From the NCBI RefSeq assembly GCF_014196305.1, contig NZ_JACIDJ010000001.1, forward strand, positions 1,288,290 to 1,352,289: a stretch of 64,000 nt of DNA, in the 5' to 3' direction. This DNA comes from Roseococcus suduntuyensis. GTDB taxonomy: Bacteria > Pseudomonadota > Alphaproteobacteria > Acetobacterales > Acetobacteraceae. A program made the position numbers and the translations under genes. The notes under the pieces were generated by a model, which worked only from the letters and a program-made list of their open reading frames with translations, was not told the origin of the DNA and did not search any database. The stretch's first letter is position 1; each line of letters begins with the position of its first letter. Of the stretch, positions 3,059-58,792 are shown piece after piece.

Positions 3059-3703
3059 ATGAACATCCAGGTGCCCACGACCGCCCTTCCCGCCGACGAG
3101 AAGGCCTCGGCCATCGCCCGGCCGAGCCGCGCGGAGGCCGAGGCCGCCGTGCGCACCCTGCTGCTCTGGGCCGGCGACGACCCGGACCGCGAGGGTCTGG
3201 TGGACACGCCCGCCCGCGTCGCCCGCGCCTATGAGGAATTCTTCGCGGGCTATGACAGCGACCCCGTCGAGATGCTCGCCCGCTCCTTCGAGGAGACGGA
3301 TGGCTATGACGAGATGGTGGTGCTGCGCGACATCCGCCTGGAAAGCCATTGCGAGCACCACATGGTGCCCATCATCGGCAAGGCGCACATCGCCTACCTG
3401 CCGAGCGGCCGCGTGGTTGGCATCAGCAAGCTGGCACGGGTGATCGAGACCTACGCCAAGCGCCTCCAGATCCAGGAGAAGCTGACGGCGCAGATCGCGA
3501 ACACCATCGAGAGCGTGCTGAAGCCCAAGGGCGTGGCCGTCGTCATCGAAGCCGCGCACCAGTGCATGACCACCCGCGGCATCCACAAGCCAGGGGTGAC
3601 GATGGTGACCTCGCGCATGCTGGGCGAGTTCCGCAGCAATGACGCGACGCGCCGGGAGTTCCTGGCGATGATCGGCGGGTCGCGCGGGCCGCTGGAGGGC
3701 TAA
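3059..3703 (+). CDS. folE: GTP cyclohydrolase I
   Basis: Converts GTP to 7,8-dihydroneopterin triphosphate, the first step of tetrahydrofolate (and queuosine precursor) synthesis. The 214-residue protein has the zinc ligands Cys98 and His101 in [11 protein letters not shown] and Cys169 in HQCMTTRG, and the family stretch [21 protein letters not shown] at ~119-139. I use ATG 3059, which has GAGGAAT about 10 bases upstream; the frame remains open further upstream only to a TTG at 2966 with no ribosome site. A strong hairpin straddles its stop codon, and the convergent GNAT gene ends 18 bases away. Confidence 0.95.
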
Positions 3704-3712
3704 CCCTCCAGC
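3691..3712. terminator. Hairpin spanning the folE stop codon
   Basis: Perfect inverted repeat: GCTGGAGGG at 3691-3699 pairs with CCCTCCAGC at 3704-3712 around the four-base loop CTAA, which contains the folE TAA. It lies between convergent genes, so it could stop transcription from both sides. There is no clear T-tract, so termination is inferred from strength and position. Confidence 0.5.
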
Positions 3713-3720
3713 GCGGCCAC

Positions 3721-4164
3721 CTACGGCGCCATGTCGTAGGTGATCCACCAGGTGCGCTTGGCCAGCCGGTCATAGACGCCACGGCCGCGGTAATTGTCGT
3801 CGGCCGTGATCCAGCGGACGGTGGACCAGCCCTTTTCCCGCGCCAGCGCGCGCAGGTGTTCCAGCAGCGCATCGGCCACGCGCTTGCCGCGCTGCGACGG
3901 GTCCACGAAGAGGTCGTCCAGGAAGCAGCCGGTGCTGGCCGAGAGCGGTCGCGCGAAGGCGCGGTAATGGGCGAGGCCGACGGCGCGGCCGGCCTCGTCC
4001 TCGGCCACCACGGCGTTCACCTCATGCGCGGGGTCATGGATCCAGGCCCAGACCTTCGCGCGCATCTCGGGCGTCTGCGTCACCTTGTAGAATTCGGCAT
4101 AGCCCGCGTAGAGCCGTTCCCAATCCGCGCGGTGGCGTTCGGCGAGCGGGACGATCTGCACCAT
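3721..4164 (-). CDS. GNAT family N-acetyltransferase
   Basis: Acetyl-CoA-dependent N-acetyltransferase of about 147 residues; the acceptor is unknown. The acetyl-CoA pyrophosphate loop is seen in FVDPSQRGKRVADALLEHL (about residues 86-104), and a typical GNAT end in ITADDNYRGRGVYDRL. I place the start at ATG 4164, giving [11 protein letters not shown], because it overlaps the dapB TGA by one base (ATGA type) and so is translationally coupled to dapB; the longer open frame to 4221 lies inside dapB. Third gene of a probable dnaJ-dapB-GNAT run on the minus strand. Confidence 0.85.
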   Translation of the reverse strand: MVQIVPLAERHRADWERLYAGYAEFYKVTQTPEMRAKVWAWIHDPAHEVNAVVAEDEAGRAVGLAHYRAFARPLSASTGCFLDDLFVDPSQRGKRVADALLEHLRALAREKGWSTVRWITADDNYRGRGVYDRLAKRTWWITYDMAP

Positions 4165-9720: not shown

Positions 9721-11547
9721 ATGCGGAACGCCACGCGCTGGATGCCCGCCCTGGTTGTCGCGACGGGCCTGGCCCTCGCGGGCGGGGCGGCCGCGCAGAA
9801 GCAGCCGGATCCGCCGCCAGCCGCAGGCGGAAAGGGCGGACCCGCGGCCGGTGCGCAGAGCCAGAAGCTGCACCTGACGCCGCCGCCGCCCGTCGGGCGC
9901 GCACCCCAGACGCAGCCACGGCAGGCGCAGCCCGCGCCCCCGCCCCAGCCACGTGAAGCCCAGCCACGCCAGACCCAGCCACGGCAGGCCCAGCCCGGAA
10001 CGGGGCCCCAGGCCAGCCAGAAGCTGCACCTGACGCCGCCGCCGCCCATCGGCCAGGCGCAGCCCCGCCAGCCGCAGCCCCAACCCGAGCCCCGCCAGGC
10101 GCAGCCGCAGCAGCGGCCGGCCCAGCCCGGGACGGGGCCGCAGGCCAGCCAGAAGCTGCACCTGACGCCGCCCTCCATCGCGCCGGACCCGCGCGGCCCG
10201 CGCCCCGGCTCGCGCACGCCCAATGAGCGGGAGGCCCAGCGCCAGGCACCCAACCCGTCCTGGCCCGCCATGCCACCGCGCATGGACAATGAGCCGGCCG
10301 CGCTGGCGACCTTGCGGGAACTGCTCTCCGACGACGTGCAGGTGGGCTATGGCGAGGCCCGGCAGGAGGGCGAGGTGCTGACCCTGCGCGACGCCGACCT
10401 GCGCCGGGGCGCCGAGCGCATCCTGGTGCAGGAGCTGATCCTGGAAGCGCCCGGCGCGGAGGGGCTGCGCCGTGGCGAGGCGCGCAACCTCCGCTTCGAG
10501 TCGCCCGAGGCGGCCGTTACGCTGGAGCGGCTGGAGATCGGGGGGCTGGCCATGCTGGCGCTGCGCCCCGGCCAGGAGCCCCGCGATCGCGAACCCGACC
10601 AGGTCGCGCTGGAGAACCTGCGCGTCTCGGGCCTGGAGGTGCGGGAAACGGGCGGCACGCGGGTCACTCTCGCGCAGTTCGACCTGTCGGGCTGGCGGGC
10701 CGGGCAGGCCGGCCGCGTGGGCCTGGAGGGGCTGCAGGTGGGCCTCACCGGCGCGCCCGTGGACCAGGTGCGGGTGGCCTCGGCATCGGTGGAGGGGCAC
10801 GACATCGCGGCGCTGATGACCTCGGCCGTGCGGAGCGAGGCGCCGAGCGCGCCCCCCGCCGGGCGCCAGGTCTATCGGGTGCAGGGCGTGCAGGTGATGC
10901 GCGGCGACCAGAGCGTGGCCGGCATGGGCCGCTTCCTCATCGAGGGCGAGACCCGCGCGGATGGCTTCAGCGGCGGCCGCATCGCGGTGAACGAGGTGGT
11001 GGTGGAACGCACGCCGGAGACGGCCATGGTGCTGGACGTGGTGGGCCTCGACCGCCTGTCCATGGACCTCACCATCGACGCTTCCTGGACGCCCGAGAAT
11101 GAGCGGCTGGACGTCTCCGCCTTCGCCTTCGGCGTGCGCGACCTGGGCGCGCTGGCCCTGGGCTGGAGCATGGAGGGGGTGAACATCGAGAACCCCGGCG
11201 GCAACCCCGAGGCGGTGCGCCTGCTGCAGGCCCAGCTGCGCTATGCCGACCAATCCCTTTATGAGCGCACGCTGGCCGACCAGGCCCGGCGCCAGAACAT
11301 GACCCCCGCCCAGGTTCGCGACCAGCACCGCGAGATGGTGACGGCGGCGCTGACCGGCCCCGCGCCCGACCCCGGGCTGGACGGGCTGCGCGAGGCGCTG
11401 CTGCGCTTCGTGGCCGGGCAGGCGCGCGAGGTGGAGATCATCGCCCGCCCGCCCGCGCCGGTGACGCTGGATGCCGCCCAGGCCGCGATGATGCAGGGCC
11501 CCGCCGCTGCCGTCGCCCTGCTGGGGGTGCGGGCCACCGCGCGCTAG
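9721..11547 (+). CDS. Secreted Pro/Gln-rich repeat protein of unknown function
   Basis: 608 residues, not recognised. It starts with a clear Sec signal (residues 1-25, ending GGAAAQ) behind a near-perfect ribosome site AAGGAGGT (9709-9716). Residues ~26-185 are Pro/Gln/Arg-rich, low in complexity, with three copies of SQKLHLTPPxxxG at about 47, 99 and 143. The rest (~190-608) is an acidic, Leu/Val-rich domain with repeated LxxLxV strands (for example LENLRVSGLEV, GLEGLQVGLTGAPVDQVRV), suggesting a beta-solenoid or lipid-transfer-like fold. A periplasmic or envelope location is inferred. The gene ends TAG directly at a palindromic repeat. It could be an adhesin-like or structural protein; no enzyme motif is seen. 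Confidence 0.75.
   Translation: MRNATRWMPALVVATGLALAGGAAAQKQPDPPPAAGGKGGPAAGAQSQKLHLTPPPPVGRAPQTQPRQAQPAPPPQPREAQPRQTQPRQAQPGTGPQASQKLHLTPPPPIGQAQPRQPQPQPEPRQAQPQQRPAQPGTGPQASQKLHLTPPSIAPDPRGPRPGSRTPNEREAQRQAPNPSWPAMPPRMDNEPAALATLRELLSDDVQVGYGEARQEGEVLTLRDADLRRGAERILVQELILEAPGAEGLRRGEARNLRFESPEAAVTLERLEIGGLAMLALRPGQEPRDREPDQVALENLRVSGLEVRETGGTRVTLAQFDLSGWRAGQAGRVGLEGLQVGLTGAPVDQVRVASASVEGHDIAALMTSAVRSEAPSAPPAGRQVYRVQGVQVMRGDQSVAGMGRFLIEGETRADGFSGGRIAVNEVVVERTPETAMVLDVVGLDRLSMDLTIDASWTPENERLDVSAFAFGVRDLGALALGWSMEGVNIENPGGNPEAVRLLQAQLRYADQSLYERTLADQARRQNMTPAQVRDQHREMVTAALTGPAPDPGLDGLREALLRFVAGQAREVEIIARPPAPVTLDAAQAAMMQGPAAAVALLGVRATAR
9859..10173 (+). repeat. Three direct repeats inside the Pro/Gln-rich gene
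   Basis: The segment beginning AGCCAGAAGCTGCACCTGAC recurs at 9859, 10015 and 10147. The last two lie within longer matching blocks (9991-10041 and 10123-10172) that share CAGCCCGG and ACGGGGCC upstream and differ at only a few bases. The near-identity at DNA level, beyond the amino acids, points to recent internal duplication. Confidence 0.85.
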
Positions 11548-11601
11548 CGTCTGATCGCGTTTGGCGGAATCGCCAAAGGCGTGAATCAGTCGCTGTGGCG
11601 T
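11548..11601. repeat. Dispersed palindromic element, single copy
   Basis: Begins at the base after the upstream TAG and ends where the malic-enzyme stop begins. The core stem GCGTTTGGCG and CGCCAAAGGC flank the loop GAAT, with outer TGAT/ATCA. It matches the 56-bp unit tandemly repeated at 38216-38431, with stem changes that keep pairing (GGCG/CGCC here, GGTG/CACC there). It sits between convergent genes, so a bidirectional terminator or REP-like role is inferred. Confidence 0.85.
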
Positions 11602-13875
11602 CTATCCTTGGGCGCGCGCCGCCTGGCTGCCGGCCACGGCGGCGAGGTTCGCGATGCCGCGCGCCGTGACGCTCGGAACCAGCACGTGCACGGGCTTGTT
11701 CATGCCCAGCAGCATGGGCCCCACCTGCAACCCGTCGCTGACCGCCTTCACCAGGTTGAAGGCGATGTTGGCGGCATCGAGGTTGGGGAAGACCAGCAGG
11801 TTCGCCATGCCCTCCAGCTTGGGGTCCGGCACGGCGCGGGCGCGGATGGCGGGCACGATGGCCGCGTCGCCATGCATTTCGCCATCCACCTCCAGCTCCG
11901 GCGCGGCGGCGCGGATCAGGGCCAGGGCGCGGCGCATGCGGCGGGCGCTCTCGGCCCCCGAGGCGCCGAAGGAGGAATGGCTCAGCAGCGCGACCTTGGG
12001 CACGATGCCGAATTCGCGCACCTGCTCGGCCGCCAGCAGCGTCATTTCGCAAAGCTGCTCGGCCGTGGGTTCCAGCATCAGGTGCGTGTCCACGAAGAAG
12101 AGCGTGGCGCCCTGGCTGATGACGGCCGACATGGCATAGGCGCGGCTGACATCGGCGCGCTTGCCGGTAACAGCCAGCACATGTTCCCACTCGCGCATCC
12201 AGTCGCCGCGACCGCCGGCGATGACGGCATCGGCCTCGCCCCCCTCCAGCAGCAGGCAGGCGGCGACGGCGGGGCGGGAGGCCACGCGGCGCTCGGCCGC
12301 CGGGGGCGTGATGCCGCGCCGCCCCACCTTGGACTGGTAGAGGGTGACGAGGGGGGCGAAGAAGGCCGGGTCCTCCTCCGGGTGCAGCACGCGCACGCTC
12401 TCGCCCAGCGCCATGCGCAGGCCGAGTGCCTGGACGCGCGCGGCCACCACCTCGCGCCGGCCGATGAGGATGGGCTCGGCCGTGCCCTCGTCCAGCACGG
12501 TCTGGACGGCGCGGAGCGTGCGCTCATCCTCGCCCTCGGCGAAGACGACGCGGGCGGGGCGGCGGCGGGCCAGTTCCTGCACCGGGCGCATGAGGTTGCC
12601 CGAGCGGAAGACGAAGCGCGTGAGCTCCTGCCGGTAGGCGACGAGGTCCGCGATGGGGCGACGGGCCACGCCGCTGTCCATGGCGGCCTTGGCCACGGCC
12701 GGCGCCACCTCCAGGATCAGGCGCGGGTCGAAGGGCTTGGGGATGATGTAGTCCGGCCCGAAGACGGGCGCCGTGCCCCCATAGGCCGCGGCCACCACCT
12801 CGCTCGCTTCCACGCGGGCGAGGGCTGCGATGGCCTCGACGGCGGCGACCTTCATCTCCTCGTTGATGGTGGTGGCCCCGGCATCCAGCGCGCCGCGGAA
12901 GATGAAGGGGAAGCAGAGGACGTTATTCACTTGGTTGGGATAGTCCGTCCGGCCCGTGGCCACGATGGCGTCGGGGCGCACGGCGCGCACCGCTTCGGGC
13001 AGGATCTCGGGCTCGGGGTTGGCGAGCGCCAGCACCAGCGGCTTCGGCGCCAGCCGCGCCAGCCATTCCGCCTTCAGGATGCGGGGGGCGGAGAGGCCCA
13101 GGAACACATCCGCGCCGTCCAGCACCTCCTCCAGCCGGCGGGCATCGGTGGGCTGGGCGTAGCGTGCCTTGTAGGGGTCGGTGTTGGGGCGGCCGGCATA
13201 GACCACGCCGTCAATGTCGCAGACCGTCACGTTCTCGCGTCGCAGGCCCATGGTCACCAGCAGGTCCAGGCAGGCCAGGGCCGCCGCGCCGCCGCCGGTG
13301 TTGACCAGCTTCACCTGGTCCAGTGTCTTGCCCTGGATGAGCAGCCCGTTGCGGATGGCGGCGGCGACGATGATGGCGGTGCCGTGCTGGTCGTCATGGA
13401 AGACCGGGATGTTCATACGGGCACGGAGCTGCGCCTCGATCTCGAAGCATTCCGGGGCCTTGATGTCTTCCAGGTTGATGGCGCCGAAGCTGGGCTCCAG
13501 GGCGGCCACGGTTTCCACGAAGCGGTCCACCTCGCGCGCCTCGACCTCGATATCAATGGAATCGATGCCGGCGAAGCGCTTGAACAGCACCGCCTTGCCT
13601 TCCATCACGGGCTTCGACGCCAGCGCGCCGATCGCGCCCAGCCCCAGCACGGCGGTGCCATTGGTGATGACGGCCACCATGTTGCCGCGGGCGGTGTATT
13701 CCCAGGCGGCGTCGGGGTTGGCGGCGATCTCCTCGCAGGCGGCGGCGACGCCGGGGGAATAGGCCAGGGCCAGGTCGCGCTGGCTGGCCATGCGCTTGGT
13801 CGGCTCGACGGTGAGTTTCCCCGGCCGCGGGAAGCGGTGATAGTCAAGCGCGGCGCGGCGGAAATCATCGTCCAT
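11602..13875 (-). CDS. maeB: NADP-dependent malic enzyme with C-terminal phosphotransacetylase-like domain
   Basis: Oxidatively decarboxylates malate to pyruvate, supplying NADPH. The 757-residue protein has the two-part MaeB build. The N-terminal malic domain has [10 protein letters not shown] (catalytic Tyr region), [18 protein letters not shown] (catalytic Lys region), [12 protein letters not shown] (metal acids) and [16 protein letters not shown] (nucleotide loop). From ~430 a phosphotransacetylase-like domain begins ([19 protein letters not shown]); in this family it is regulatory, sensing acetyl-CoA. I choose ATG 13875 ([10 protein letters not shown]), which has GAAGGA eight bases upstream; the in-frame ATG three codons earlier is too close to that site. 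It converges on the Pro/Gln-rich gene. Confidence 0.95.
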
Positions 13876-13921
13876 GGCGTGCATCCTTCGTGACACGCCT
13901 GTTATTCGGCAAGCGCGCGCG

Positions 13922-35535: not shown

Positions 35536-35611
<76 letters not shown>

Positions 35612-36188: not shown

Positions 36189-37157
36189 ATGGAACGGCGG
36201 CAACTCGGACACACAGGGCTTGAGGTTTCGGTCATTGGCTATGGCTGCGGCGCCATCGGCGGGCTGATGGTGAAGGGGAGCGCGGCCGAGCAGGACCGCG
36301 CCATCGGCCGCGCGCTCGACCAGGGCTTCACCTATTTCGACACCGCCAGCGCCTATGGCGACGGTGCCTCCGAGCGGAATCTCGGCCGCGCGCTGCGGGG
36401 GCTGGGCGCCAACCCCGTCATCGGCACCAAGGTCCGCATCTTCCCCGAGCAGCGCGGCGACATCGCCGGCACCATCGCGGCCTCGCTGGAGGCCAGCCTC
36501 GCGCGGCTGGGGCGGGAGCGGGTGGACATCTTCCAGCTCCACAACCCCATCACCGCGGCGGGAGCGGCACCCGCCTTCACCGCCGACGCCATCCTGGAAC
36601 AGGCCGTGCCGGCGCTGCGGCGCCTGCAAACCCAGGGCAAGATCGGCCACTACGGCATCACGGGCCTGGGCGATGCGCCGGCCCTGCTGCGTGTGCTGGA
36701 GGAAGGCGGCTTCGCCACCGCCCAGATGCCCTACAACCTGCTGAACCCGAGCGGCGTGACGCCGCCCAAGCCCGGTTCCGCCATGCCCGATCTCGGCGGC
36801 GTCATTGCCGGCGCGGCGGCGCTGGGGGTGGGTGTCATGGCCATCCGCGTGCTGGCGGGGGGTGCCTTGAGCGGCACCGAGGCGCGCGGGCCCATGGGCG
36901 TGCCGGCGCCCGCGCCCATCGCCTCGGGCGCCGACTATGCGACCGATGTGGTGGCGGCGCAGCGCTTCCGCCCGCTGGTGGCGGCGGGGTTCGCGGCGGA
37001 CCTGGTGGAGCTGGCGCTGCGCTTCGCCGCCATGCCGCGCGAGATCAGCACCATCCTCGTCGGCAGCGGCAGCGTGGAGGAAATGGACCACGCCGTCGCC
37101 GCCATCGCGCGCGGCCCGCTGCCCCCCGAAGCCCTTGCGATGCTGGAGACCCTGTGA
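36189..37157 (+). CDS. Aldo/keto reductase
   Basis: NAD(P)H-dependent oxidoreductase of 322 residues with a TIM-barrel fold. RQLGHTGLEVSVIGYGCGAI opens the family; FDTASAYGDGASERNLGRAL (51-70) has the catalytic Asp and Tyr; the Lys of GTKVRIFP and His of FQLHNP complete the tetrad. Substrate unknown. A stem made of CGCCCC (36168-36173) and GGGGCG (36181-36186) ends three bases before the ATG and would cover the ribosome site. Its stop overlaps the next start by one base, so the pair forms an operon. Confidence 0.93.
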   Translation: MERRQLGHTGLEVSVIGYGCGAIGGLMVKGSAAEQDRAIGRALDQGFTYFDTASAYGDGASERNLGRALRGLGANPVIGTKVRIFPEQRGDIAGTIAASLEASLARLGRERVDIFQLHNPITAAGAAPAFTADAILEQAVPALRRLQTQGKIGHYGITGLGDAPALLRVLEEGGFATAQMPYNLLNPSGVTPPKPGSAMPDLGGVIAGAAALGVGVMAIRVLAGGALSGTEARGPMGVPAPAPIASGADYATDVVAAQRFRPLVAAGFAADLVELALRFAAMPREISTILVGSGSVEEMDHAVAAIARGPLPPEALAMLETL

Positions 37158-38215
37158 TGCCCCGACTTTCTTCCGAGGGGCTGATCGCCCTCGTCGCCGC
37201 CATGCTGGTGCGTGTTGGCGCCGAGGAAGCGGTGGCGCACCAGGTCGCGTCCGACCTGGTGGAGGCGAACCTGCAAGGCCATGACAGCCACGGCATGCAG
37301 CTCGTGCCGCGCTATGTGGCGAATGTGGAGAAGGGCCTCATCACGCCCAACGCCGTGGCGCAACAGGTGGGCGGCATGGGCGCGCTGGCGCTGTGGGATG
37401 GCGGGATGGGCTTCGGCCAGGTGGTCGGGCGCCAGGCGACGGCGGCGGGCATCGCGGCCGCGCGGGAACACGGGCTGGCCGGCTTCGGGCTGCGGAACAC
37501 CCACCATCTCGGCCGCATCGGCGCCTATGCCGAGATGGCGGTGGCGGAGGGGCTCATCGGCATCTTCTTCGTGAATGCCGTGAGCGGCGTGCCCTTCGTG
37601 GCGCCCTTCGGCGGGGCGGATGGGCGGATGGGCACCAACCCCATCTGCATCGGAATCCCGAAATCCCCGCACCCGATCCTGCTGGACTTCGCCACCAGCG
37701 CCATCGCCGTCGGCAAGGTGAAGGTGGCCTTCAACGCCGGCAAGCCCGTGCCCGCCGGCGCGCTGGTGACGCATGAGGGCGAGGCCAGCACCGACCCCGC
37801 CGTGATCTACGGCCAGGGCCCGCGCGGCGCCTTGCAGCCCTTTGGCGGGCACAAGGGCTATGGCTTGGCGCTGGTCTGCGAAATCCTGGGCGGGGCGCTG
37901 ACCGGCGGTGGCACCAACCAGCCCGCCACGCCCAACGACCGCGGCATCGTGAACGGCATGCTGGGTATTCTGCTCGACCCCGCGCGGCTGGCGGAAAGCC
38001 CGGCCTTCGCGGCCGAGGTGGACGCCATCAGCGAACACGTCATGGCCAGCGCGCCCGGCCGTGTCATCCTGCCCGGCGAGCCGGAGCGGCGTGCGCGGGC
38101 GGAGCGCGTGGCCCAGGGCATTCCGCTGGATGACGTGACCTGGGGCGACCTTTCCGCGACGGCCACGCGGCTGGGGTTGCCGGAGGGGGAGATCCGGGCG
38201 GCGCTGGTGGGGTAG
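37157..38215 (+). CDS. Malate/L-lactate dehydrogenase family oxidoreductase (Ldh2 type)
   Basis: NAD(P)-dependent dehydrogenase of 352 residues from the family that includes malate, ureidoglycolate, 2,3-diketogulonate and delta-1-piperideine-2-carboxylate reductases. Seen: NLQGHDSHGMQLVPRYV (catalytic His region, ~36-52), GLRNTHHLGRIGAYAE, GTNPICIGIP, LDFATSAIAVGKV and PFGGHKGYGLALVCEILGG. The family does not use a Rossmann fold. Substrate is not predictable; ureidoglycolate would fit the nitrogen-scavenging context. Its TAG is directly followed by the first copy of the 56-bp repeat array. Confidence 0.92.
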   Translation: MPRLSSEGLIALVAAMLVRVGAEEAVAHQVASDLVEANLQGHDSHGMQLVPRYVANVEKGLITPNAVAQQVGGMGALALWDGGMGFGQVVGRQATAAGIAAAREHGLAGFGLRNTHHLGRIGAYAEMAVAEGLIGIFFVNAVSGVPFVAPFGGADGRMGTNPICIGIPKSPHPILLDFATSAIAVGKVKVAFNAGKPVPAGALVTHEGEASTDPAVIYGQGPRGALQPFGGHKGYGLALVCEILGGALTGGGTNQPATPNDRGIVNGMLGILLDPARLAESPAFAAEVDAISEHVMASAPGRVILPGEPERRARAERVAQGIPLDDVTWGDLSATATRLGLPEGEIRAALVG

Positions 38216-38431
38216 CGTCTGATCGCCTTCGGTGGAATCACCTGAGGCGTGAATCAGCCGCTCAGCTATGACGTCTGATCGCCTTCGGTGGAATCACCGG
38301 AGGCGTGAATCAGCCGCTCAGCCATGACGTCTGATCGCCTTCGGTGGAATCACCGGAGGCGTGAATCAGCCGCTCAGCCATGACGTCTGATCGCTTTCGG
38401 TGGAATCACCGGAGGCGTGAATCAGCCGTTC
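38216..38431. repeat. Four-copy 56-bp tandem palindromic repeat
   Basis: Units start at 38216, 38272, 38328 and 38384, each beginning CGTCTGATCGC and near-identical. Each carries a 10-bp stem (GCCTTCGGTG with CACCGGAGGC) around loop GAAT, inside outer TGAT/ATCA. Copy 1 differs in one stem base and in CTAT for CCAT; copy 4 has GCTTTC, keeping pairing through G-T. The array fills the whole gap between convergent genes, from the base after TAG to two bases before the ABC ATPase stop. Related single copies are at 11548 and 58357. Confidence 0.95.
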
Positions 38432-38433
38432 GA

Positions 38434-40020
38434 TTATGCCGCCGCCCCCGGCCGCCGCAGCGCCGCCGCCAGCAGCGCCCGCGTGTAGTCATGGCGTGGC
38501 GCGTCCAGCACCACGTCGCGCGGGCCTTCCTCCACGATGCGCCCGTGCTGCATCACCACGATGCGGTCCGCGATCTCCTCCACCACGCCCAGGTCGTGCG
38601 TCACGAAGAGGCAGGCGAAGCCGCGCCGCCTTTGCTGTTCGCGCAGCAGCCCCAGCACCTGCTTGCGCACCGTGGCATCGAGCGCGCTGACGGCCTCGTC
38701 GGCCACCACGAGGGCGGGGTCGCGCACCAAAGCGCGGGCGATGGCGACGCGCTGCCGCTGCCCGCCCGAAAGCGCATGCGGGAAGCGCGCACCCAGGCCG
38801 CCCAGCCCCACCTCCTCCAGCAGCGCTTCCGCGCGGCGGTGGCGTTCATCGAGGGCCATGCCGCCGGGCAGGCGCAGCGGTTCCGCCACGATGTCGCGCA
38901 CGCGCATGCGCGGGTCGAGCGAGGAATAGGGGTCCTGGAAGACGATCTGGCAGGCCAGGCGGAAATCCAGCAGGGCGGGGCCGGTGCGCGCCGTGACGTC
39001 CGCGCCCTGGAACAGCAATTGCCCGCCGCTGACCGGCACCAGGCGCAGCATGGCGCGCCCCAGCGTGGTCTTGCCCGAACCCGAGCCACCGACCAGCGCC
39101 ACCACCTCGCCCGGATGGATGGACAGCGAGACGCCATCCACCGCCTGGAACATCTCGGCGCGGCGGAACAGGGCGCCGCGCTTGGGGTAGGTGACGGAGA
39201 GGTTGCGCGCCTCGATCAGCGGCGGCGCGGGCGGCACTTCGCGCGCCGGGCCACGGCGGGGCAGGGCGTCCACAAGGGCCCGTGTATAGGCCTCGCGCGG
39301 GTTGTCGAGCAGGGGCGCCGCCGGCCCTTCCTCCACCGCGCGCCCGTGCTGCATGACCAGCGCGCGGTCGGCGTAGCGCGCGACCAGGCCGAGGTCATGC
39401 GTGATGAGCAGCAGCGCCGTGCCCTGCTCGCGCGCAAGGCCGGACATGAGATCCATCACTTCCGCCTGGGTCAGGCTGTCCAGCGCGGTGGTGGGTTCGT
39501 CCGCGATCAGCAGGCGCGGCTTCAGCAGCATCACCGAGGCCAGCATGATCCGCTGCCGCATCCCGCCCGAGAATTCATGCGGGTAGGCCTCAAGCCGCCG
39601 CGACGCATCGGTGATGCCCACACGCTCCAGCATGGCGATGCAGGCCTCGCGCCGTTCCGCGCGGTTCAGGCGCGTGTGCAGCGCCAGGCCTTCCTCCATT
39701 TGCGCGCCGATGCGGTGGGCGGGGTTCAGCGAGGTCATCGGCTCCTGGAACACCATGCCGATGCCAGGGCCGCGCAGTTTGCGCAGCGTGGCGGAACCGG
39801 CTTCCAGCGGCGCGCCCCCGAAGCGGATGGTGCCGCCATCGGGCGCCAGCCCCGGCGGCAGCAAACCTATGACGGCGCGCGCGGTGGCGCTCTTGCCCGA
39901 GCCGCTTTCGCCCACCAGCGCCAGCGCCTCGCCGGGGGCGATGCGGAAGGAAAGCCCGTCCACCACGCGGCGGCCGCCGGCGGCGATGGAAAGGCGGTCC
40001 ACCTCCAGCACGGGCGTCAT
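38434..40020 (-). CDS. Fused dipeptide/oligopeptide ABC transporter ATPase (DppD-DppF type)
   Basis: 528-residue protein holding both ATPases of a peptide/nickel-type importer. First half: Walker A GESGSGKSA (37-45), signature FSGGMRQRIMLASVML, Walker B LLIADEPTTALDSLTQ. Second half: Walker A GGSGSGKTT (~311-319), signature LSGGQRQRVAIARAL, Walker B LVVADEAVSALDATV. Each half keeps the oligopeptide C-terminal extension (PREAYTRALVDALP; PRHDYTRALLAAAL). Fusion as in GsiA/YejF. Overlaps the upstream permease stop by four bases; last gene of the operon. Confidence 0.95.
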   Translation of the reverse strand: MTPVLEVDRLSIAAGGRRVVDGLSFRIAPGEALALVGESGSGKSATARAVIGLLPPGLAPDGGTIRFGGAPLEAGSATLRKLRGPGIGMVFQEPMTSLNPAHRIGAQMEEGLALHTRLNRAERREACIAMLERVGITDASRRLEAYPHEFSGGMRQRIMLASVMLLKPRLLIADEPTTALDSLTQAEVMDLMSGLAREQGTALLLITHDLGLVARYADRALVMQHGRAVEEGPAAPLLDNPREAYTRALVDALPRRGPAREVPPAPPLIEARNLSVTYPKRGALFRRAEMFQAVDGVSLSIHPGEVVALVGGSGSGKTTLGRAMLRLVPVSGGQLLFQGADVTARTGPALLDFRLACQIVFQDPYSSLDPRMRVRDIVAEPLRLPGGMALDERHRRAEALLEEVGLGGLGARFPHALSGGQRQRVAIARALVRDPALVVADEAVSALDATVRKQVLGLLREQQRRRGFACLFVTHDLGVVEEIADRIVVMQHGRIVEEGPRDVVLDAPRHDYTRALLAAALRRPGAAA

Positions 40021-52410: not shown

Positions 52411-53314
52411 ATGTGGAAACGCCGCGCCCTCATCGCCGCCGGCCTGGCTGGCGCAGCGCCCGTCGCCTATGCCTTCGGCGTCGAGCCCTATTGGGGGCCG
52501 CGTGTGGCGCGGTATCGGGTGTCACCGCCAGGCTGGCCGGCGGGCGGCCCGCTGCGGATCGCCGCGCTGGCCGACCTGCACGCCGGCGCGCCGGCCATGA
52601 CGCTGGACCGCATCGCCGCCATCGTCGCCACCACCAATGCCGAGGCGCCGGACCTCGTGGTGCTGCTGGGCGATTACGGCCCGAACACGCCCCTGATACG
52701 CCCGCCCTATCCCCACGCCGAGGTCTGCGCCCTGCTGGCCGGGCTGCGCGCGCCGCTGGGCCGCTACGCCATCGCGGGCAACCATGACTGGTGGGAGGAT
52801 GACGCGGCCATGCACCGGCGCGGCGGCCCGCTCTTGTGGATGGAGGCGCTGGCGGAGGCGGGCTTCACGCCGCTCCAGAACCGCGCCTTGCGCCTGGAGC
52901 CGGGCTTCTGGCTGGCCGGGCTGGACAGCCAGATCGCCTTCCTGCCGCTGCCCTGGCGGCCGCATCGTGGCGCGGACAACCTGGACGCGACGCTGGCCCA
53001 TGTGACGGACGACGCGCCCGTGGTCCTGCTGGCGCATGAGCCCGACATCTTCGCGGCGGGCACGGCGCGGGTGACGGTGCAGCTCTCGGGCCACACCCAT
53101 GGCGGGCAGATCAGGCTGCTGGGCTGGTCGCCGCGCGTGCCCTCGCGCTACGGCAACCGCTACGCCTATGGGCATGTGCGCGAGGGCGGGCGGGATTTGG
53201 TGGTCTCCGGCGGGCTCGGCACGTCCACCCTTCCGGTGCGGCTGGGCGTGCCGCCGGAAGTGGTGGTGGTGGAGTTGGCCCGCGCCTGGTCCGCGGCGGG
53301 TTTCGCCGCGGTGA
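52411..53314 (+). CDS. Metallophosphoesterase, frame open past its normal end
   Basis: Calcineurin-like phosphoesterase (YaeI/YkuE type) with an N-terminal basic-hydrophobic anchor (MWKRRALIAAGLAGAAPVAY). All metal motifs are present: LADLHAG (DxH), LLGDYG (GDxx), GNHDWWEDD and GHTHGGQIRLLGW. Homologues end near VVVVELARAW (~residue 293). Here the frame has no stop until 54618, running antisense through the CoA-transferase gene; a TGA at 53312-53314 lies one base out of frame directly behind a hairpin. I give that point as the supported end. Either a one-base error/indel or real loss of the stop explains it. The true annotated product could be ~735 residues. Confidence 0.7.
53291..53311. terminator. 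Hairpin at the end of the metallophosphoesterase gene
   Basis: CCGCGGCG (53291-53298) pairs with CGCCGCGG (53304-53311) around GGTTT, followed by TGAATCAGCCG. The last bases match the right edge of the 56-bp repeat (GTGAATCAGCCG), perhaps by chance. It lies between convergent genes. Confidence 0.4.
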
Positions 53315-53334
53315 ATCAGCCGCGCAAAAACCCG

Positions 53335-58267: not shown

Positions 58268-58311
58268 GCGGGAGGCGCCGCGGGCGCTGAATCGCGCGAC
58301 CGGAGAAGCTA

Positions 58312-58339
58312 GAGCAGCCTGCGTTCACACAGCCTGCTC
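58312..58339. repeat. Imperfect palindrome in the thioesterase-ridA gap
   Basis: GAGCAGCCTG (58312-58321) and CAGCCTGCTC (58330-58339) form a stem with one C-C mismatch around CGTTCACA. It is adjacent to the GAAT-loop palindrome at 58357 and could act with it as a bidirectional terminator. Confidence 0.55.
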
Positions 58340-58356
58340 CAACCTTTGTTGAGGGC

Positions 58357-58396
58357 GGGATTCAGCGTTTTCGGTGATTCCACCTCAACGCATCCC
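58357..58396 (-). repeat. Dispersed palindromic element, third location, reverse orientation
   Basis: Read on the minus strand it has GGTG-GAAT-CACC as inner stem and loop, then GCGTT/AACGC and outer GGAT/ATCC pairs. This matches the shape and loop of the 56-bp element at 38216-38431 and 11548, with different but compensating stem bases. It covers the last codons of ridA (stop at 58385) and lies between convergent genes. Confidence 0.65.
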
Positions 58397-58792
58397 GCTC
58401 TCAACGGCGACCACAAGGTCAATCTCGACCAGCGCGCCCAGCGCGAGGCCGGTGACGCCCACCGTGGTTCGCGCGGGCAGCTTGCCGGGCGGGAACTCGG
58501 CCTCCCAGATGGCGTTCATGGCGGCGTAGTCGCGGGCGAATTCGGTCAGGTAGATGCGCGCCATCACCACCCGCGCCCATTCCGCGCCGCAGCCGGCCAG
58601 CACGGATTTCAGGTTGGCGATGACCTGGCGCGTCTCCGCCTCGATGCCGCCCGGTACGCAGCGCGTGTTGTCGCCAGGGTCGGTCGGCATCTGGCCGGTG
58701 ACGAAGAGGAAGTCCCCCGCCCGCACCGCATGGCTGAAGGGCGCGACCCGCTTCGGGCCATCGCCCAGGACGAAATGGGCGAGGTCCGTCAC
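58385..58792 (-). CDS. RidA family protein
   Basis: 135-residue YjgF/YER057c/UK114-type protein, a trimeric deaminase for reactive enamines/imines such as 2-aminoacrylate. The carboxylate-binding Arg108 in KLPARTTVGV and Glu123 in LVEIDLVVAV match active RidA members; VTGQMPTDPGDNTRCVPGGI and QVIANLKSVLAGCG are family stretches. It overlaps denD-like by four bases. The diaminopropionate lyase gene nearby makes aminoacrylate, giving this protein a plausible job. Confidence 0.9.
   Translation of the reverse strand: MTDLAHFVLGDGPKRVAPFSHAVRAGDFLFVTGQMPTDPGDNTRCVPGGIEAETRQVIANLKSVLAGCGAEWARVVMARIYLTEFARDYAAMNAIWEAEFPPGKLPARTTVGVTGLALGALVEIDLVVAVESGMR

Follow-up and report, generated by a model that had tools for sequence, protein, structure and literature searches.

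A REP-like hairpin family at gene 3' ends in Acetobacteraceae, multiplied in tandem between two convergent genes

Few non-coding sequences are as common in bacteria as REP-like repeats. To our knowledge, nobody knows how those outside the RAYT system move. The GTAG and CGTC REPs were defined by Di Nocera et al. 2013 (PMC3733652), together with their placement at gene 3' ends and between convergent genes. GTAG REPs often supply a TAG stop codon, and dimers are mostly head-to-head (PMC3733652). CGTC REPs have a terminal unpaired CGTC (or TGTC/CCTC), stems of 8-9 bp starting with AT pairs, a loop of 4-5 nt, a CCA tail and head-to-head dimers; head-to-tail dimers are negligible, no transposase is associated with them, and Acetobacteraceae are stated to be without them (PMC3733652). 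In Escherichia coli, REPs stabilise or attenuate transcripts, and affect translation at distances of up to 15 nt from the stop codon (PMC5082802, PMC12306157). Here, we analyzed a palindromic array of a Roseococcus genome and found that it belongs to a large family of hairpins. The family is real and not an artefact, and it is apparently undescribed, as no paper describing it was found in the literature that we searched.

The array and its hairpin unit

Within the window, by which we mean the whole 64-kb stretch of DNA analyzed, TRF reported an array at 38216-38428 (period 56, 3.8 copies, 98% matches, score 405) that is the strongest by a wide margin. It lies between a gene of the Ldh_2 family (malate/L-lactate dehydrogenase, 353 aa; 37154-38215, plus strand), which ends with TAG at 38213-38215, and a convergent gene for a two-domain ABC transporter ATPase (ABC_tran x2, oligo_HPY, 528 aa; 38434-40020, minus strand), whose TAA stop at 38434-38436 (TTA on the plus strand) is two bases past 38431. 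The gap is filled by four 56-bp units, the fourth of which is truncated. Both the sequence and TRF confirmed the original prediction that the units start at 38216, 38272, 38328 and 38384 in 56-bp register and that the array edges coincide with the TAG of the plus gene and lie two bases from the TAA of the minus gene.

Each period consists of a hairpin of about 47 nt and a linker of about 9 nt, which were copied together. The hairpin of unit 1 (38215-38261, plus strand, like all features of the array) reads GCGTCTGATC, followed by the inner stem CCTTCGGTG-GAAT-CACCTGAGG and by GTGAATCAGCCGC, and its first G at 38215 is at the same time the final base of the upstream TAG. Units 2 (38271-38317, beginning with ACGTCTGATC) and 3 (38327-38373) follow, and the hairpin of unit 4 (38383-38429) has no linker copy, the 3' end of the minus-strand gene coming directly after it. 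In hairpin register, linker 1 (38262-38270) is TCAGCTATG, and linkers 2 and 3 (38318-38326 and 38374-38382) are both TCAGCCATG. The claim that the units have no spacers thus holds formally, but a linker is contained in each period and is missing only after the fourth copy. Similarly, the stem described around GAAT within TGAT/ATCA is present, but it extends to GCG/CGC pairs further out and includes an unpaired TGA on the 3' side. When folded as RNA, one unit reached -26.5 kcal/mol (z -3.8) and the whole four-unit array a z of -7.6, each beating every shuffle.

Two further places of the family in the window had been missed. A single copy at 11547-11592 (plus strand) occupies the convergent gap between genes at 9721-11547 (+) and 11602-13884 (-), and its first G again doubles as the final base of the TAG that ends the plus gene. 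The third place, at 53282-53322 (plus strand), has the short inner stem CGCGGCGGGTTTCGCCGCG. Another convergent gap, at 58310-58402, carries a second palindromic family (TAGAGC...; core GCGGGATTCAGCGTT..GGTGATTCCACC..AACGCATCCCGC) with 15 exact pattern matches in the genome; because it has the GAT...TGA-ATC bulge layout and the GGTGGAATCACC loop in common with the main family, the two may be related. The sole tRNA of the window, tRNA-Lys (CTT), is at 35536-35611.

Over the whole family, the element is an imperfect palindrome of about 47-54 nt with the consensus (TA)GCGYCYGATC, an inner stem of 17-32 nt including the loop, and GTGAATCRGCCGC-TCRGCAA. It forms a stem of 16 pairs with 3-4 more past a mismatch, a TGA bulge and the tail CTCRGCAA. 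In an alignment of 40 units, 94.5% of the cells were paired and two-sided changes were seen at 10 of the 20 pairs, values reached by none of 500 shuffles. Among 308 units, almost all bases of the feet were conserved at 90% or more, a covarying pair (T/C...A/G) being the exception, and the T, G and A of the bulge were each at least 98% conserved. In contrast to these fixed feet, the inner stems came in 226 distinct versions, mainly paired, whose sequence changes with complementarity being kept. Recognition may therefore depend on the feet and the bulge, with the stem having to be no more than a stem. One variant (L248 of genome G009) has the feet GCATGATC...GTGAATCATGC, with an A-T pair replacing the usual T.C mismatch.

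GANTC, which is the CcrM site, is found (as GAATC) in the right foot of 94% of the 308 units, and GATC in the left foot of 95%, as would befit a protein- or methylation-binding array. However, both motifs follow from the pairing of GAT with ATC plus the TGA bulge, and binding predicts neither the placement at 3' ends nor the stop-codon register described below; we therefore consider this explanation very improbable.

On the plus strand of the hairpin, G.T mispairs exceed A.C mispairs (128:49, distinct per array), an excess that drops to 48:23 after collapsing related units. Such an excess is a sign of single-strand selection. It was unchanged whichever way the neighbouring gene is transcribed, even where the element is antisense to the gene, and this speaks for a property of the element itself more than for a role in the flanking mRNA. 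The idea that the excess reflects selection on the mRNA of the flanking gene was rejected on this ground and in view of the drop to 48:23. Judged from these mispairs, the element may use its plus strand in single-stranded form during its own life cycle, with shared ancestry or mutation bias being possible sources as well.

Distribution and turnover of the family

The 56-bp unit is dispersed, and the search of its own and of related genomes proposed in the original prediction was productive in both. BLAST placed the array at 41 places in its own genome, and a covariance model (R1), built after the alignment of 40 units, gave at least 154 matches in these 4.1 Mb. All 20 other genomes tested from the Roseococcus clade had family matches, from 1 to at least 135 each. 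A first impression that the family is limited to a single genus was overturned in a wider sample, where 90 of 200 Acetobacteraceae genomes and 50 of 99 genera, hence half of the genera, carried a match; the numbers of matches are lower bounds, and some single weak matches are possibly other hairpins. In 16 alphaproteobacterial genomes from outside the Acetobacteraceae, no match was found. Carriers named in a pattern scan were Roseococcus, Roseomonas, Rhodovarius and MAGs assigned to Acetobacteraceae or Rhodospirillales, two carrier MAGs being labelled Asaia bogorensis, and Roseococcus thiosulfatophilus RB-3 appears to be one carrier. The plasmid and phage collections that we searched contained no match, so the spread of the family is not plasmid- or phage-borne in those collections. 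No Rfam covariance model matched the element, either at gathering level or with E values of up to 10, and a known Rfam RNA family was accordingly rejected.

We compared the history of individual sites between the own genome and two relatives, G003 (four-fold divergence 17%) and G004 (14%). The array locus of the window has four copies in the own genome, three in G004 and none in G003; there, the overlapping stops of the two genes read TTAA. Four other sites (L012, L015, L047 and window 11546/11547) are empty in both relatives; the empty alleles have TAG already at L012 and L015, TAA at 11546/11547 and TGA at L047, the last despite TAG in more distant relatives. The target is not fixed, since four of the seven empty alleles checked carried TAA or TGA. 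Conversely, the convergent gap at window 3703-3723 is empty in the own genome, with a short GC hairpin instead, and holds two copies in both G003 and G004. These presence/absence pairs are mostly not polarised. Several apparently empty alleles are decayed copies (for instance L269 and L284 of the own genome), and some look like deletions.

Array size also shifts often between species (2 to 1, 3 to 1, 3 to 2). Neighbouring copies were head-to-tail in 105 of 106 pairs, the remaining pair being on opposite strands, and linker identity was 94% within arrays but 47% between arrays. Homogeneous linkers and uniform orientation indicate that arrays grow by local tandem duplication and not by repeated insertion. 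The same linker identity, which leaves no unique spacers, upholds the initial statement that the array is not a CRISPR, for which there was no gathering-level Rfam match either.

Flanking k-mers in 202 arrays revealed no target-site duplication above the shuffled control; single suggestive cases (TTTAG at L293 of G003, CTA at L047) did not rise above it. A MITE derived from a DDE transposon was rejected for this reason and because a search of the own genome for IS630-type DDE_3 found none.

Three sites are more complex. At one orthologous TAG, two main-family copies in G004 (L225) correspond to the second hairpin family in the own genome (L275). At another, five copies in one orientation (L272, own genome) correspond to one copy of another subtype in the opposite orientation (L222, G004). 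At a third (L232 in G004, L282 in the own genome), the element appears to lie within the loop of a pre-existing hairpin, CTGCCCCGG...CCGGGGCAG.

Much of this turnover would also be expected of a purely selfish or neutral repeat, for which stop-adjacent sites would be least harmful and whose palindromy would be kept only by mobility or by hairpin-templated mutation. Copy numbers in the genus extend from 1 to 139 or more, alleles are present, absent or decayed, relatives do not require the element, and the G.T excess follows the element's own strand in any direction of host transcription. However, at orthologous single-copy sites the inner stems differ at 12 of 214 positions, about one third of the four-fold rate (13.8% at four-fold sites, 21% in the next 12 nt of flank); this count was made after dropping a misaligned start in one pair and leaves out the feet, which are conditioned by the search, and the constraint could partly be ascertainment or gene conversion. 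We regard the purely selfish reading as quite unlikely.

Placement at stop codons and possible roles

Gene ends were taken from a simple codon-usage gene caller. The 180 element-bearing gaps comprised 101 convergent, 69 codirectional and 10 divergent ones (56%, 38% and 6%), compared to 55, 368 and 213 among the element-free gaps of at least 30 nt in the same stretches. Convergent gaps are thus strongly enriched (OR 13.5, p about 1e-39), although the counts are not fully independent, since some of the sites are orthologues from three species. The own genome taken by itself had 29 convergent arrays out of 44. Copies are therefore not random relative to gene ends, although the idea that the sites might always be convergent proved wrong. 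The left gene's TAG ends on the first G of the element in 68 of 137 cases, and in 12 further cases the stop is 8 nt inside the element, at the TGA of CTGATC as judged from the offset. TAG makes up 116 of the 215 stops next to elements (54%) and 225 of 1223 elsewhere (18%).

Such a placement would suit a bidirectional transcription terminator or 3'-end protector, with a primarily host function, arrays that raise its efficiency and only secondary spread. Convergent gaps are enriched and divergent ones depleted, arrays are slightly commoner in convergent gaps (41/97 vs 21/78, p 0.04), the hairpin is stable and conserved, the inner stem is conserved at orthologous sites, and bidirectional terminators between convergent genes are common in another alphaproteobacterium, Zymomonas mobilis (PMC7566282). 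On the other hand, a search for a GC-rich hairpin followed by a U-tract found none on either strand, making a classical intrinsic terminator unlikely. The hairpin itself is stable, and the multi-step bidirectional terminator suggested at the outset retains some probability. Moreover, the feet are conserved far beyond the needs of a terminator, many of the convergent sites concerned are without the element in close species, and the 38% of codirectional gaps follow no strong orientation rule (40 '>>' vs 28 '<<'). A primarily host-serving terminator or protector is, in our opinion, unlikely.

We favour a REP-like, non-autonomous mobile palindrome that inserts at the TA of stop codons, is amplified in tandem in place, is tolerated by the host and probably acts as a 3'-end RNA hairpin, an explanation that we hold to be probable if far from certain. 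A copy would arrive by a replicative process without target-site duplication, favouring TA, which in practice means that of a stop codon. The first G of the element would complete the stop as TAG, so that the gene would still be terminated. The placement at gene ends, above all convergent ones, would reflect an insertion preference together with selection against other sites. The unit and a few flanking bases would then duplicate head-to-tail, giving rise to the arrays of 2-5, which are uniform at each locus and vary from one species to the next. In each of the two convergent mRNAs, the hairpin would be placed immediately at the stop codon and would most likely act against 3' exonucleases and/or read-through. 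Based on the known REPs of E. coli, we infer that a hairpin that blocks 3' exonucleases or takes part in Rho trimming is the likelier role at the RNA level.

A bolder version, possible but on balance doubtful, is a stop-codon-directed mobile hairpin with its own single-strand-based mover, which would insert at the stop TA, restore TAG and multiply head-to-tail. If this were true, insertion, restored stop and head-to-tail growth together would allow such a hairpin to colonise convergent gene ends while breaking neither gene.

In this family, close species differ by recent gains and losses, the junction at stop codons is precise, there is no candidate REP transposase and the hosts are culturable; this makes the mover of transposase-less REPs directly testable. 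Likewise, the locus in the window, with its four, three and no copies, is a natural dosage series for asking whether the hairpins set the 3' ends of converging transcripts.

Comparison with known repeat systems

The suggestion that the array is a REP/BIME-type element multiplied in place stands as far as dispersal, 3'-end location and local amplification are concerned, but the family falls outside the defined REP superfamilies. Like the GTAG REPs and BIMEs that accompany RAYTs in E. coli, Pseudomonas and Stenotrophomonas, it consists of short imperfect palindromes in hundreds of copies. As with GTAG REPs, these are dispersed and extragenic, lie at gene 3' ends in convergent and codirectional gaps and often provide the TAG stop (PMC3733652). 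A GTAG-type REP mobilised by a RAYT (Y1) transposase in trans, or by one recently lost, would also fit the TAG at the 5' foot, the single-strand type of imperfect hairpin with a bulge and the lack of target duplication. However, the family tag is not GTAG: 99 of the 202 arrays have TAG at the 5' end of their first copy, and the preceding base is C in about half of the arrays and G in a quarter. Furthermore, a search for Y1_Tnp, with positive controls, found none in the own genome and one among 21 genus genomes; the sole positive genome (G016), with three Y1 proteins, has 7 element copies, and none was found in G000, G003 or G004, with at least 135 copies each. The arrays are head-to-tail and not head-to-head, and the hairpin is longer, with a conserved 3-nt TGA bulge. 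Mobilisation by a RAYT is accordingly highly improbable.

With the CGTC REPs (alphaproteobacteria, Neisseria dRS3, Rickettsia RPE-4/6), the family shares an alphaproteobacterial host, the lack of a dedicated transposase and the 3'-end location (PMC3733652). CGTC stands at the 5' foot in 76% of the 308 units and CGCC in 16%, but its CG is paired in the outer stem. Unlike the CGTC REPs, the family has a stem of about 20 bp with a bulge and a mismatch, the tail CTCRGCAA and head-to-tail arrays. Compared by description, Br-REP1 and Br-REP2 of Bradyrhizobium are similar in being palindromic repeats of alphaproteobacterial 3' UTRs, Br-REP1 also between convergent genes, but Br-REP1 is described as three palindromes (PMC5082802). 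Bidirectional intrinsic terminators likewise place at convergent 3' ends a hairpin that can serve either strand (PMC7566282), whereas our element has no U/A tract and is a dispersed repeat with conserved feet whose presence varies between close species. Because its defining features differ, we did not file the family as a GTAG or CGTC REP; it shares their placement and behaviour but has neither the GTAG tag nor a RAYT in the copy-rich genomes and differs in stem, tail and dimer orientation, and we therefore call it REP-like.
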